A stretch of DNA of 64,000 nt. It comes from Fidelibacterota bacterium. GTDB taxonomy: Bacteria; Fidelibacterota; Marinisomatia; SCGC-AAA003-L08; JACNLC01. The stretch spans positions 1-64,000 of the forward strand of contig JAJRUW010000031.1 in the NCBI GenBank assembly GCA_024277615.1, read 5' to 3'. The notes under the pieces are model-generated. The model saw only the letters and a list, made by a program, of their open reading frames with translations. It had not been told where the DNA came from and did no database searches. Below are positions 17,223 through 64,000 of the stretch, piece after piece (position 1 is the stretch's first letter; every line of letters begins with the position of its first letter). The position numbers were made by a program, and so were the translations under genes.

Positions 17223-17927
17223 TTAATAGCGCGATATTTCGTTGGCGGCTTTGCCTTCGGCACGATCGATTGTAGTGATGGCCCGCTGCGAACTTTCAAA
17301 ATTCCGCTGAAGTTCAATCAATTTCACCATTTCCTGCAGGGGATTTACATTCGAACCCTCCAGCTTTCCCTGCTGAAGGTCGGGCTCATCCAGGACTTCC
17401 GGAACCATACGGGGATCTGCCGCAAACAAATTTTGACCTTTTTTCTGAAGTCCTTTATAGTCGTCAAAATCCACAATTTTGAGATTACCGGCATAGTCAT
17501 CGTCAATGTAAATCTCGCCATGATCTGAAATTAAAATCTCACCCACCGTTAAATCTCCCCGCGACAGATTGATCTCACCACCGTCTCCCAAAACAGGCAG
17601 TCCGTCTGATGTCTGCAGAATGCCGTAACTGCTGATGTTAAAATGGCCGTTGCGGGTATAAAATTCCTGACCATCTTTGAGAATTGTAAAAAAACCCCTG
17701 CCCCGTATGGCAATATCCAGTGGATTATCGGTTGTTTCTAGCTGACCCTGGCTGAAGTTTGTTTTAACCTCTACTTGCAGCTTAACGGAATCCTTTACAA
17801 GTTGAGCGAATGCGATATCTTTCTTATAACCGGTAGTATTTATGTTGGCCAGATTATTGGCAGTAATATCGTTTTTGTAAACCTGAGCCGTCATAGTATT
17901 TTTCAGTCGTTCTAAATCAATTCTCAT
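17223..17927 (-). CDS. flgF: Flagellar proximal rod protein FlgF (FlgG-family)
   Basis: ANNLANINTTGYKKDIAFAQLV...NPLDIAIRGRGFFTIL...EMVKLIELQRNFESSQRAI. Confidence 0.9.
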   Translation of the reverse strand: MRIDLERLKNTMTAQVYKNDITANNLANINTTGYKKDIAFAQLVKDSVKLQVEVKTNFSQGQLETTDNPLDIAIRGRGFFTILKDGQEFYTRNGHFNISSYGILQTSDGLPVLGDGGEINLSRGDLTVGEILISDHGEIYIDDDYAGNLKIVDFDDYKGLQKKGQNLFAADPRMVPEVLDEPDLQQGKLEGSNVNPLQEMVKLIELQRNFESSQRAITTIDRAEGKAANEISRY

Positions 17928-17957: not shown

Positions 17958-17973
17958 CGCAAGAACAATGCCA
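17958..17973 (-). promoter_or_regulatory. Sigma54-type promoter for flgF operon
   Basis: Minus strand TGGCATTGTTCTTGCG: GG-N10-GC; about 20-nt leader with GAGGTAATACG before ATG at 17927. Confidence 0.72.
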
Positions 17974-18128: not shown

Positions 18129-18165
18129 GGGAAAGAATTGAATTTCCCGGGGAAGGAATTTCCCG
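18129..18165. promoter_or_regulatory. Tandem inverted repeats, candidate enhancer (UAS) upstream of the flgF promoter
   Basis: GGGAAA-N8-TTTCCC (18129-18148) and GGGAA-N5-TTCCC (18150-18164). Confidence 0.5.
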
Positions 18166-18288: not shown

Positions 18289-19101
18289 CTATGACGGCAA
18301 CCGCGTCATTTTAATGGAACCGTGATAGGCTTCTGTCTGTGATTTATTGATATGTCGTAATCTCTCGGTGACACGCTGAATTTTTTTTGCGGCCTGATGG
18401 ATAGATTTCAGAGCGCTTTGGATTTTTTCTTTATTACCGGTATTATAAGTAAACTGCAGGATTTCCGACAGGCTGATAATTGAAGTCAAAGGATTGTTTA
18501 TCTCGTGATTTACCGTGACAACAATTTCACCGATGGCAGCCAGCCGCTCTTGTTCAACCAGTCGGTTCTGGGCATCTTTCAGCTCCGTCAGAGCCTTCTC
18601 AAGTTTGGCATTCTTTTCCTGGAGCGTTGATTGGAGGATGATTTTATCCATCACCATGGAAATTTGCCTGGCAATAAACTCAAAAGCCGGCAATTCCTTT
18701 CGCAGATACATTTCGCTATCCTGATGTCCCAGGTTTAAGACGCCAATCAGTTTATCGCCGGCCCTCAGTGGCATGGAGACAAAGGAACAGAAGCGATGCT
18801 CAAGCCCTGCTTTGGCTCTGGCGAGAGATTCCAGGATCACCGGTTTGTGAAGCTGAGAAACCCAGCTGGAAATTCCCCGGCCCCGGGCAAATGTGAAATC
18901 GCCCGCCAGTTCAACGATATCTTCACCCTTTTGATGTATTACCTCCAATTTGTCCTGTGTTTCATCATACAGGAACAGCGTTGCAGAGTCGAATGAAAGC
19001 GTCTTTTCCAGCAAGTCGAAGACGGCGCTGAAAGTTTCATCAGAACCAAGTCCTTTCTGAATGATGGTGGAGATCTCTTCTAAAAATTCTAAATTAATCA
19101 A
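18289..19101 (-). CDS. GAF + HisKA protein lacking a recognisable HATPase domain
   Basis: GAF-like N-terminus; LAAIGEIVVTVNHEINNPLTSIISLSEIL H-box; ORF stops about 70 aa later. Confidence 0.8.
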   Translation of the reverse strand: MINLEFLEEISTIIQKGLGSDETFSAVFDLLEKTLSFDSATLFLYDETQDKLEVIHQKGEDIVELAGDFTFARGRGISSWVSQLHKPVILESLARAKAGLEHRFCSFVSMPLRAGDKLIGVLNLGHQDSEMYLRKELPAFEFIARQISMVMDKIILQSTLQEKNAKLEKALTELKDAQNRLVEQERLAAIGEIVVTVNHEINNPLTSIISLSEILQFTYNTGNKEKIQSALKSIHQAAKKIQRVTERLRHINKSQTEAYHGSIKMTRLPS

Positions 19102-19115
19102 AATAGCATACCGTT

Positions 19116-20369
19116 TTAATTTTTAAGCATTTCAATAAGATTGAAAAGCTGCTTGCTCTCCTCTTTTTCCGATACGGGAATCCTGACCTTAAAGATGCTG
19201 CCGCATCCTGGTTTGACGGATACGGCGAGATCTCCCCCAAATGATTGAATGACTCGTTTTGAAATGGTCAATCCTACCCCCGAATGAACTTCCGGCCTTT
19301 TAGTAGTGAAAAAGGGATTGAAAATTTTCCCCACGATTTCCGGAGCCATTCCTCCGGCATTATCTTCTACTTCGATCTCAATCCATTTTTGAGTTACATC
19401 TCTGGTAACAATCGTGATTTCCGGAGGCTCAAACTCGGCGCCCGGGTTGGCCTTGCTCCTGTGATCGAAGGCGTCCCGGGCATTTGTCAGCAGATTCACC
19501 AGAACCTGCTCAATTAAAATCGGATTCCCGTAGATCACGGGTAATTCCCGCCCGGCAAGGAAATTTACATTGATGTTGCGTTTACTGATTTCATATTTAA
19601 CCAGATTATAAGCATTTTCAACACACCTATTAATATCCAAAATACTGGCCGAAGTTGTCTCAGTCTGATTTGCAAAAGCTCGTGTATTATGGATAGTCTG
19701 GCTCATCCTGTCAACCAGCTCCGACATCTCCTGGAAGCTTTTTTCAAGATCGCCGTTATCACCTGCCCTTTTCCGAATGACCGACTTTAGATAGCCAACT
19801 CTGAGTTTCATCGCAGCCAGCGGTTGTGACAGCTCATGTACCAGTCCCACCGATAATTCTCCCAGAGCCCGCAGCCTTTCAGCGGAGACAGAAAGAGCTT
19901 GCTGCTCTTTTAATTCTTTCTCAATAAATTGGCGACTCGATATATCTTTGGCAGTTACAATAAAATATCCAATCTCGTCTTTACCATGAGGGACAATATT
20001 AAAATTCAAAATCACTGGGATTTGAAGTTCACCGTTCACCATGAGAGCTTCAATATCATTACAGATGCCGCCGATGAACGGGACGATTGACTTTTCATGA
20101 CTGCCTGAATTTTTCTTCAGACCCAGTGAAGAGAAGGTGTCCTCGCAGATGAAAATATCATTTATTGACTTCGTTGAAGTGAGATAACTGTCTGCACCCA
20201 GTAAATCGAGCGCGCTTTTATTAGCATACTCGATCTGTCCGTCCGGTTCTACAATAAATATGGCATCGTTTAGACTCTCGAGGATGGTAATCGTCGTCAC
20301 ATAATCCCGAACCGTTGCGAAATTTGACTCAACAGTGAGGGGCTGATTGTTTTTAAAATGCGCTTTCAT
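19116..20369 (-). CDS. PAS sensor histidine kinase (NtrB/AtoS-like)
   Basis: PAS domain; LGELSVGLVHELSQPLAAMKLRV; VLVNLLTNARDAFD; DNAGGMAPEIVGKIFNPFFTTK. Confidence 0.93.
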   Translation of the reverse strand: MKAHFKNNQPLTVESNFATVRDYVTTITILESLNDAIFIVEPDGQIEYANKSALDLLGADSYLTSTKSINDIFICEDTFSSLGLKKNSGSHEKSIVPFIGGICNDIEALMVNGELQIPVILNFNIVPHGKDEIGYFIVTAKDISSRQFIEKELKEQQALSVSAERLRALGELSVGLVHELSQPLAAMKLRVGYLKSVIRKRAGDNGDLEKSFQEMSELVDRMSQTIHNTRAFANQTETTSASILDINRCVENAYNLVKYEISKRNINVNFLAGRELPVIYGNPILIEQVLVNLLTNARDAFDHRSKANPGAEFEPPEITIVTRDVTQKWIEIEVEDNAGGMAPEIVGKIFNPFFTTKRPEVHSGVGLTISKRVIQSFGGDLAVSVKPGCGSIFKVRIPVSEKEESKQLFNLIEMLKN

Positions 20370-32908: not shown

Positions 32909-32984
32909 TATAAAATATTCAATTTAAAAGTAAACAGCACTCCCGGGAACCATTCCCTGGTTTTCTGCTTGCGGGAAGAATATT

Positions 32985-33000
32985 TTCAAATTTAGTGCCA
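32985..33000 (-). promoter_or_regulatory. Putative sigma54-type promoter upstream of fliL operon
   Basis: Minus strand TGGCAC-TAAAT-TTGAA: perfect -24 box; -12 has GA instead of GC. Confidence 0.45.
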
Positions 33001-33318: not shown

Positions 33319-33354
33319 GGAAAAATTTTCCCCTAATCTCGGGTAATTTTCCCG
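33319..33354. promoter_or_regulatory. Tandem inverted repeats, candidate enhancer (UAS) upstream of fliL
   Basis: GGAAAAATTTTCC (33319-33331) and CGGGTAATTTTCCCG (33340-33354). Confidence 0.5.
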
Positions 33355-46950: not shown

Positions 46951-47331
46951 TTAACGATTCCGGCCTAAGATGGCAGAGGACAGACCGGCATAGTATCGTC
47001 TGAGAACCTTGCTGACAAATTCATGTTTGATCTGGTTGGCTGCCAGATCACTCATCTCACGTGTCAGGTCAACTTCCCCTTCACCATTTGCTTCGGATTG
47101 AGCCAATTTTTTGAACCTGGAATTTGCCAGATGTCTGGGATCCGTGACTTTTAGACGGTTGTCATCCATTTCCTCCTTCAATACTGCAGAGAAATCTGTA
47201 TCGATCCTTCTGAAACTGGGATTATTAACATTGGCAATATTTTCCGCAATAGCCGCTCGCTCCTGACCATAGGTTTCCAGAGCTTTTTTCAGTAATTGAG
47301 AATTATTTGTGTTAAAAAGTTTTAGTTCCAT
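46951..47331 (-). CDS. flgB: Flagellar basal body rod protein FlgB
   Basis: MELKLFNTNNSQLLKKALETYGQERAAIAENIANVNNPSFRRIDTDF; start placed at the internal ATG (ORF track extends to 47352). Confidence 0.95.
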   Translation of the reverse strand: MELKLFNTNNSQLLKKALETYGQERAAIAENIANVNNPSFRRIDTDFSAVLKEEMDDNRLKVTDPRHLANSRFKKLAQSEANGEGEVDLTREMSDLAANQIKHEFVSKVLRRYYAGLSSAILGRNR

Positions 47332-47346
47332 AGTTAACGACACGTG

Positions 47347-47363
47347 TTTCAATTGTCGTGCCG
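47347..47363 (-). promoter_or_regulatory. Weak sigma54-type promoter candidate upstream of flgB operon
   Basis: Minus strand CGGCACGACAATTGAA: GG-N10-GA; would give a very short leader. Confidence 0.3.
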
Positions 47364-47505: not shown

Positions 47506-47543
47506 GGAAAAATTTTCCAAACGGGAGGTGAAATAATTCCCGT
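47506..47543. promoter_or_regulatory. Tandem inverted repeats, candidate enhancer (UAS) upstream of flgB
   Basis: GGAAAAATTTTCC (47506-47518, identical to 33319-33331) and ACGGGA-N11-TCCCGT (47521-47543). Confidence 0.5.
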
Positions 47544-47570
47544 AAGATATTGAAGAATCAGTGATTATTC

Positions 47571-47590
47571 CGCCTATAGCCCAATAGGCG
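47571..47590 (-). terminator. Small hairpin, possible terminator after sigma54 activator gene
   Basis: CGCCTAT-N6-ATAGGCG; no strong T tract. Confidence 0.3.
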
Positions 47591-47659: not shown

Positions 47660-49009
47660 CTATTCTTCCATCTGATACTGGTGCAGTTTATTCCGCAATG
47701 TCCGTACGCTTATCCCAAGAATTTTGGCGGCCTTTGTACGATTGTCATCGGTCATGTCCAGGGTACTCTGGATCATCTTTTTCTCCATTTCCGCCAGGGA
47801 CATGGCCTTGTTGTTGAACAAACCGCCCGCTGAATCCTGGTGGTCTGATTCGAATGAAAAATGCTCCATTCGCAGAGACTCTTCTTCTCCTGAATACAGT
47901 ATAGCACGTTCAAGCAGATTTTCCAGCTGCCTGACGTTACCCTCAAATCTTTGTTTCATTAAGTATGACACTATTTCGGCAGAGATATCTTTTTTTTCAT
48001 ATCTGTATTTTACTTTAAACTTTTCGATGAAGTGATTCAATAATATTGGAATATCGTCCGGCCGGGAACGCAGCGGAGGTACTTTGATGGGAAATACATT
48101 CAGGCGATAATAGAGGTCCTGTCTGAACCTGTCACTGTCAATCAGGGATTGAATGGATTTGTTCGATGTGGCGATCACCCGAACATTGACATTGATCTCT
48201 TTGGTGGAGCCCACTCTGGTGAGGGTACCTTCCTGCAGAACCCGTAATAGTTTGGCCTGCATCGGCATAGGCATTTCGGTAATTTCATCCAGCAACAGCG
48301 TCCCGGTATCAGCCTCCTCGAATAGTCCTTTGTGCATCTTTAGGGCATTTGTAAAAGATCCTTTTTCATGTCCAAAAAGCGTACTTTCAAATAATGACTC
48401 CGGAATCGCAGAACAATTGACCTTGAGAAATGGTTTATCCACGCGGTCACCCAGTTCGTGTATGGCCCGGGCGATCAGTTCTTTCCCGGTTCCACTTTCA
48501 CCCTGAATAAATACGGCCGCGTCGCTCTTGGCAACGATTTCGATCTGTTGGAAAACTTTCTGCATTTTACGGCTTTTCCCAACCAGCTTTTTAAATTTCG
48601 TCTCTTGAAGCAGTTTTCCCTTCAATTCTTTATTTTCTTCAATTATTCCCTCATATTCAAAATAGCGTTTTACGCGGGAAATTATATTCGAAAGGGAAAA
48701 AGGTTTGGTGACGAAATCAAAAGCGCCTTTTTGCAGGGCCTCCACGGCGAGTTCTATGGAGCCGTAAGCTGTGATCACCAGAAAACCTACGTCTGCATAA
48801 TCCCTTTTTACAATCTCCATCAATTCAATACCTGTGATTCCGGGCATCATAAGATCCGAGACAACCAGGTTCACCGGTTCGGTTTTGAGAATTTCCAAAG
48901 CTGTTGCACCATCTTTTGCAGAGATTACTTCATATCCCTCAGATTTAAAGGACTCGATCAGGACGGCCCGCAAACTGTGGTCATCGTCAACAATCAGGAT
49001 TTTCTTCAT
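47660..49009 (-). CDS. Sigma54-dependent NtrC-family response regulator (FlgR/FleR-like role)
   Basis: REC domain; AAA+ GESGTGKELIARAIHELG, ESTLFGHEKGSFTNA (GAFTGA-type loop is GSFTNA); C-terminal Fis HTH. Confidence 0.95.
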   Translation of the reverse strand: MKKILIVDDDHSLRAVLIESFKSEGYEVISAKDGATALEILKTEPVNLVVSDLMMPGITGIELMEIVKRDYADVGFLVITAYGSIELAVEALQKGAFDFVTKPFSLSNIISRVKRYFEYEGIIEENKELKGKLLQETKFKKLVGKSRKMQKVFQQIEIVAKSDAAVFIQGESGTGKELIARAIHELGDRVDKPFLKVNCSAIPESLFESTLFGHEKGSFTNALKMHKGLFEEADTGTLLLDEITEMPMPMQAKLLRVLQEGTLTRVGSTKEINVNVRVIATSNKSIQSLIDSDRFRQDLYYRLNVFPIKVPPLRSRPDDIPILLNHFIEKFKVKYRYEKKDISAEIVSYLMKQRFEGNVRQLENLLERAILYSGEEESLRMEHFSFESDHQDSAGGLFNNKAMSLAEMEKKMIQSTLDMTDDNRTKAAKILGISVRTLRNKLHQYQMEE

Positions 49010-62679: not shown

Positions 62680-64000
62680 TTAAATTTTGAATTGTGAAAT
62701 GAGAGTGTTCAGAGTCTGAACTTCTTTATTCAACGCTTCGGAAGTAAATGCCAGCCCCTGTGCGCCTCCTGCCGCTTCCTTGGCAACTGATGATATATTT
62801 TCAATATTTTTTGAGATCTCTTCAGCTCCGGTACTCTGCTGATCTGCTGCATTTGCAATTTGCTCAACTGCATTATTGACTTCGTCAATGGATACGGATA
62901 TTTTATCCAAAGCGGAACCGGACTGTGAGGCCAGTTGTCTTCCCTTGTCAGAACGATCGGTAATTTTTGCCGTACCATTTACCGAATCCATTACACCCTG
63001 CTGTATTTCCCTGATCTTTTCACCGATTTCGGTCGTTGCATTCACGGTCCTTTCGGCAAGTTTGCGAACTTCATCGGCAACAACGGCAAAACCGCGACCG
63101 GCATCGCCTGCCCGGGCGGCCTCAATATTGGCGTTAAGAGCCAGTAAATTGGTTTGATCCGCAATATCTTCGATCACCTGAATGACTTCCCCGATCTCTT
63201 TCGATTTAGATTCAAGGCTGCTGATCTGGTTTGAAGTTGAGGCGACAATTGCGGCTATATCCTCCATCCCCTTGATGGTATTTTTAACGGAACTTTTGCC
63301 TTCTGACACAACCGAACTGGCTTCTCCGGTAGTTTCATGGGTAGCGTTTGCGTTTTTACTTGCTTCCAAAATCATGGCGCTCATTTCTTCCATGGAAGTT
63401 GCAATTTCACTTAGCTGAGCCTGCTGTTCTTCCGCACCGGCCGCAAGCTGCTCAGAAGTCGCTGATAATTCATTTGAGGAATCTTCCAGATTCTGTGAAC
63501 TGACACGAATTTTTTTGATTACCTCCTGGACTTTCTGTACAAAAACATTGAACCACTGTGCAAGTTCGCCCAATTCATCCTTTTGTCCGATGACAAGACG
63601 CTTTGTTAAATCTCCGGCACCCTGGGCAATATCCTTTAAGTTTTCTGAGACAGCTCTGATGCGTTTTATAACGAGAAAATAGACTACTACATAACTGCAA
63701 ATTCCAACTATCAGAGACATGCCAATTATTGTCAATATTAACATCATTGTATTGCGACGACTGTTGGCCAAAACATCTGCAGATGATATTTGCATCACCA
63801 GAGCCCCGATAGTCTCACCGGGGTTTGCCACATGGCAATCAGCACATTGCTCTCTGAAGATTTTCGGTTTGGCATAAACGATGGAACCGGACTGTAAATT
63901 CGATTTGTCAATTATGGACGCACCCCGTAGTAAAGAATCCTTTACGGTTTGTGTTACGATACTCATGACATCCAGAGTAGAATCACTGGAACAGAAAACA
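62680..64000 (-). CDS. Methyl-accepting chemotaxis protein with CXXCH motif (truncated by window right edge)
   Basis: HAMP and MCP signalling hairpin ([51 protein letters not shown]); N-terminal [24 protein letters not shown]; frame stays open upstream of the 63966 ATG to the window edge. Confidence 0.93.

Follow-up and report, generated by a model that had tools for sequence, protein, structure and literature searches.

The closest described counterparts of the elements reported here are the sites of NtrC-family flagellar activators. FlbD of Caulobacter crescentus and other Alphaproteobacteria both activates and represses via ftr sites (PMC3930126). The published FlbD site is CCCGGCAxxxxxTGCCGGG, and that of DVU1063, a flagellar σ54 response regulator of Desulfovibrio vulgaris Hildenborough, is GGCAxxxxTGCC, derived from DAP-chip (PMC3333781). 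The receiver of DVU1063 is atypical, and some sites of this regulator lie downstream of promoters (PMC4641369). FlrC, FleR and FlgR of Vibrio, Pseudomonas and Campylobacter, built of a receiver, an AAA+ domain and a helix-turn-helix (HTH), switch on σ54 rod/hook genes (PMC7064773). Here we analyze a 64-kb stretch of Fidelibacterota DNA (the window), the minus strand of which encodes a cluster of flagellar and chemotaxis genes. The dyad pairs found upstream of its σ54 promoters, together with one pair just beyond its edge, very probably represent four enhancer sets of a flagellar σ54 regulon of the FlbD/ftr (Desulfovibrio DVU1063) kind, with the response regulator encoded at 47660–49009 as their predicted binder.

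A Conserved Dyad Pair Precedes the flgF Operon

The 361-bp gap before flgF holds GGGAAAGAATTGAATTTCCC at 18129–18148 and GGGAAGGAATTTCCC at 18150–18164. Both dyads described in the initial annotation were thus present, as was the promoter that it placed downstream, TGGCAT-N5-TTG(C), about 155–190 bp from the dyads. Taken literally, GGGAA-N3..10-TTCCC has 3 matches in 64 kb compared to 0.91 expected and is therefore only mildly unusual. The spacing of about 18 bp proposed for the pair holds for the literal dyads, the centers of which are 18.5 bp apart; in the 13-bp frame defined below, the two cores (18151–18163 and 18130–18142) are 21 bp apart. The features of this locus are:

18151–18163, minus strand: candidate flgF enhancer core 1, GGAAATTCCTTCC (PWM score 9.3 bits; kept in the sister genome)
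18130–18142, minus strand: candidate flgF enhancer core 2, TTCAATTCTTTCC, a weak half-site (+21 bp from core 1; kept in the sister genome)
17960–17973, minus strand: flgF operon σ54 promoter, TGGCAT-N5-TTG (14/14 identical in the sister genome)
17223–17927, minus strand: flgF, first gene of the putatively regulated rod operon (Pfam; NCBIfam flgF, 176.5 bits, below the cut-off of 178.5)

Of the sets in the window, this pair is the weakest (P = 0.12 for the single 9.3-bit site, P = 0.026 for the tandem). It is a weak match to the motif grammar, yet it forms a conserved island, with 33/36 positions identical in the sister genome compared to 47% across the remaining gap, and its strength lies in this conservation despite the low score. 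The 20-bp GGGAAAGAATTGAATTTCCC dyad was rejected as the unit, as the sister genome alters its inner half and keeps the outer half and the core at +21. Upstream of flgF lie a GAF and HisKA protein in which no ATPase domain was found (18289–19101), kept before flgF across the order, and, adjoining it, a PAS histidine kinase with an ATPase domain (19116–20369).

The Repeating Unit Is a 13-bp Core That Recurs in Pairs Upstream of fliL and flgB

To define the motif, gaps from other genera of the order were used, with the genus of the window left out. An earlier search that included A+T-rich relatives had given a diluted motif, and three such genomes were therefore dropped from training. The palindromic motif obtained de novo from the order relatives alone was gGGnAAaatTTnCCc (15.2 bits), and the repeating unit is a 13-bp palindromic core with the consensus GGNAAWWWTTNCC, in place of which order relatives often carry GGTAAAAATTGCC. 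When this motif was run on the window, the sites in the fliL and flgB gaps ranked first and second (P ≤ 0.0003 in both gaps):

33319–33331, minus strand: candidate fliL enhancer, strong core GGAAAATTTTTCC (rank 1 in 64 kb; P = 0.0003 in the gap)
33341–33353, minus strand: candidate fliL enhancer, second core GGGAAAATTACCC, 22 bp off (mostly kept in the sister genome)
32987–33000, minus strand: fliL operon σ54 promoter, TGGCAC-N5-TTG (kept in the sister genome)
47506–47518, minus strand: candidate flgB enhancer, strong core GGAAAATTTTTCC (rank 2 in 64 kb)
47529–47541, minus strand: candidate flgB enhancer, second core GGGAATTATTTCA, 23 bp off (PWM pairing; sister genome)
47350–47363, minus strand: flgB operon σ54 promoter, CGGCAC-N5-TTG (14/14 identical in the sister genome)
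46951–47331, minus strand: flgB, first gene of the putatively regulated rod/hook/export operon (NCBIfam FlgB, above cut-off)

These sites revise the claim that the flgF pattern recurs in two other gaps. The flgB gap lacks the literal GGGAA/TTCCC form, and the form's only occurrence before fliL, GGGAACCATTCCC (32945–32957), is on the downstream side of the fliL promoter and was rejected as a fliL element because it is lost in the sister genome. What the three gaps share is the 13-bp core with a second copy, 22–23 bp off at fliL and flgB. The fliL and flgB gaps are likewise not the only other long ones, the window having further gaps of ≥200 nt; none of these holds a core above 7.5 bits.

The pairing is a regular feature of the motif. 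A second, often weaker copy usually lies 20–23 bp from the first: in the training set, the mean motif score peaks again +20 to +22 bp from the primary site, the offset peaks at −20/−21 in the hold-out genomes described below, and the second core is 21–23 bp from the first in the window sets. Such a distance corresponds to about two turns of DNA, placing the paired dyads on the same face. Both the paired dyads upstream of a −24/−12 promoter and the two sites on one DNA face are as expected of a σ54 enhancer. Between congeners, the site blocks are 86–97% identical compared to 47–72% for the remaining gaps, promoters set aside (these are also kept); specifically, the fliL pair is identical at 30/35 positions compared to 55% for the rest of its gap, and the flgB pair at 35/36 compared to 72%. 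In about a dozen order relatives, the gene preceding flgB is nearly always that of the regulator and the one preceding flgF an HK1-like gene; their gaps contain similar dyads along with a strong TTTGGCAC-N5-TTG promoter.

Exact cores within fliE (46337) and flgB (47233) were set aside, each being altered in the sister genome. In the flgB promoter region (47332–47363), only about 20 bp separate the −12 element from the start of flgB, and hence the flgB leader would be very short or absent.

The Regulator Encoded at 47660–49009 Carries an FlbD-Type HTH

The proposed binder is encoded at the end of the chemotaxis run, before flgB:

47660–49009, minus strand: NtrC-family response regulator (Pfam: receiver, σ54 AAA+ and Fis-type HTH domains)

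Orthologs retain the recognition region of this protein, NRTKAAKILGISVRTLRNKL. The HTH is of the FlbD type and closest to alphaproteobacterial FlbD, in which the near-identical recognition region reads NRTxAAxILGISxRTLRNKL. A search with the HTH only gave best matches of 56–58% identity, with Azospirillum proteins first. The two Azospirillum matches inspected sit in fliF-fliH-fliN-motA-FlbD-flhA clusters and the one Erythrobacter match inspected sits in a similar cluster (fliF...flbD-flhA), and it is because of this gene order that we call these proteins FlbD. In Azospirillum thermophilum and A. lipoferum, the region before fliF carries GGCATATTTTGCC and GGCAAAAACTGCC at a spacing of exactly 21 bp, and the published FlbD and DVU1063 sites share the GGCA...TGCC frame of these elements. 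The FlbD system and the one described here both have dyads with GG...CC ends and an A/T-rich center, and both are associated with σ54 rod/hook genes. The window core, GGNAAWWWTTNCC, is in the same frame, with the third position relaxed (GGNAA rather than GGCAA). A plasmid search by the whole regulator was discarded, as it returned mostly metabolic activators.

Outside the HTH the regulator differs from FlbD. Its receiver has the phosphorylation residues, some of which FlbD lacks (PMC3096577), and the flbD-flhA gene order is not found here. It scored below the cut-off of each full-length NCBIfam model compared: 345.7 bits for FlbD (NF050807; cut-off 750), 320.4 for FlgR (NF049963; 750), 403.1 for NtrC (558.6) and 419.5 for AtoC (714). 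Since no full-length model was passed and the receiver is intact, the protein was not filed as an FlbD; from its sequence it is described as a putative two-component regulator of the FlrC/FleR/FlgR style that is FlbD-like at the DNA. The FleR HTH, RRKEAAERLGISPRTLRYKL, is unlike that of 47660–49009, and fleS adjoins fleR, whereas the candidate kinases here sit upstream of flgF. All four sets here are upstream of their promoters, in contrast to some DVU1063 sites.

At the GAFTGA position of the AAA+ domain, the regulator has GSFTNA in this genus compared to G[AS]FTGA in the orthologs read from the rest of the order, so its coupling to σ54 is not to be assumed; loop variants such as GAFTHA and GAYTDA have been reported in Desulfovibrio (PMC4641369). 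The gene rpoN is present (L144, G000:C48). The copy in this assembly is interrupted by an in-frame TAA just past the RpoN box, 15 codons short of the end, while the sister copy is intact; the TAA reflects misassembly, a truncation that is tolerated or incipient decay. A hairpin, CGCCTAT-N6-ATAGGCG (47570–47590, minus strand; z −2.3), follows the regulator stop. Its counterpart in the sister genome, CGTCTAT..ATAGACG, has a compensatory change, and the regulator transcript therefore probably ends in this RNA structure.

The dyads might instead be bound by another protein at the same promoters, be it a different σ54 activator, a repressor or a nucleoid protein. At least nine σ54 activators were detected in the genome (the HTH was unread in two), further ones could be missing because the draft is 77% complete, and FlbD itself acts in both directions at ftr sites. 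However, none of the other activators with a readable HTH has one of the NRTKAAKILGISVRTLRNKL type, their HTHs being of other types, while the conserved FlbD-type HTH of 47660–49009 matches the class known for such sites. We thus regard a different binder as improbable and 47660–49009 as the predicted one.

Exact Cores Are Rare at Promoters and Reveal a Fourth Set Upstream of cheW

The window contains 5 exact copies of GGNAAWWWTTNCC compared to 0.39 expected, a count reached in 0/100 shuffles. The whole 2.41-Mb genome has 33, and this 82-kb contig accounts for 6 of these (P = 0.0008). Intergenic cores number only 5, of which 3 are followed by a σ54-like promoter (fliL, flgB and cheW), all on the flagellar contig. 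The exact core is thus rare at promoters genome-wide, contrary to what mere background would give. Coincidental GGGAA/TTCCC matches in A+T-rich gaps would fit the roughly threefold excess of the literal pattern and the P value of the flgF site taken alone. Against chance stand the shuffles and the same geometry kept across genera, families and classes; it is refuted for flgB and fliL and is a very improbable source of the enhancer sets.

The fourth set lies just past the window (core at C11:65062, pair at C11:65041–65074), upstream of cheW. A half-site lies 21 bp beyond its core, the promoter reads CGGCAT-N5-TTGC, and the pair is identical at 34/35 positions in the sister genome. The gene cheW starts the run cheW-mcp-cheW-cheR...cheA...fapA-receiver proteins-regulator, with the regulator gene at the far end. 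In three relatives, the same core precedes the fapA...regulator run, with a strong σ54 promoter 109–116 bp away. As the run reaches its gene, the regulator would probably raise its own level, assuming that the cheW run is co-transcribed.

Two further observations concern cores within genes. A core at 62959 was excluded, being inside an mcp gene. Four order relatives carry an exact GGTAATTTTTGCC core inside flhB (L134:1823, L137:7382, L140:9785, L141:11440), which may reflect coding constraint or an internal site.

The Element Tracks flgB Across the Phylum

A phylum-wide search provided a hold-out set of 24 new regulator orthologs (54–64% identity) from other families and classes, none of them used in training. 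Where flgB follows the regulator, the core was found in 15/15 gaps (15.1–18.5 bits; shuffle P ≤ 0.004), with a σ54 promoter 99–162 bp beyond it. Where flgB does not follow, it was found in 0/9 (best score 9.7 bits; Fisher P = 8e-7). In five of these nine genomes flgC/flgB were located elsewhere, and all five had the core upstream of flgB, with a promoter 152–162 bp on. A GGNAAWWWTTNCC-type core is thus present at all 20 flgB loci examined in the hold-out genomes, and its distance to the promoter is nearly fixed (146–162 bp in most). These data indicate that the element goes with the flgB promoter rather than with the end of the regulator gene. Within the order, the site is kept (14.5 bits) in G012, where 1.5 kb separates it from the regulator, and in G003, from the window's family, the flgB site is degenerate (7.2 bits) though the regulator is present.

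That the palindromes are terminators or RNA hairpins at upstream gene ends, or attenuators, can for practical purposes be set aside: three of the four sets do follow the stop codon of a same-strand gene and a covarying hairpin does follow the regulator gene, but the motif tracks flgB rather than the upstream gene, the 20–23-bp pairing is fixed, the promoter distance is near-constant and a T tract is absent.

The dyad sites are hence kept in the sister genome, the order, and other families and classes. The proposal in the initial annotation that they are sites for an NtrC-family activator is supported by this conservation, by the rarity of the core at promoters genome-wide and by the link to the FlbD-type HTH.

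Discussion

Our analyses suggest a model for the four enhancer sets. Dimers of the 47660–49009 protein would bind the two dyads through the FlbD-type HTH, and phosphorylation of the receiver would lead to assembly of the AAA+ hexamer. The intervening 100–320 bp of DNA would loop, and σ54 RNA polymerase would be remodeled at the TGGCAC/T-N5-TTG promoters of flgB, flgF, fliL and cheW. We infer the binding, the control by phosphorylation, the co-transcription of the operons and the direction of the effect from the sites and from the type of HTH. The functions so regulated would be the rod, MS-ring and export (flgB), the rod (flgF), the motor and switch (fliL) and chemotaxis (cheW).

The switch itself is known from Caulobacter and Desulfovibrio; what is new is its probable occurrence in this phylum. 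By the ftr code we mean paired 13-bp GGNAA-N3-TTNCC dyads, spaced by 21 bp, that are recognized by an NRTxAAxILGIS[VI]xTLRNKL HTH. This code could be an ancient flagellar enhancer that crosses phyla (Alphaproteobacteria, Desulfovibrio and an FCB-group phylum), in which the phosphorylatable receiver is the older form and the FliX-controlled FlbD is derived, a scenario that we hold tentatively and to which we give slightly less than an even chance.

The findings provide a cis-code, a likely activator and a predicted four-operon flagellar regulon for a lineage without a laboratory model. Through the link to Caulobacter ftr, the flagellar σ54 regulons of uncultured phyla could be read from genomes, and it becomes possible to test how old the FlbD/ftr pairing is.
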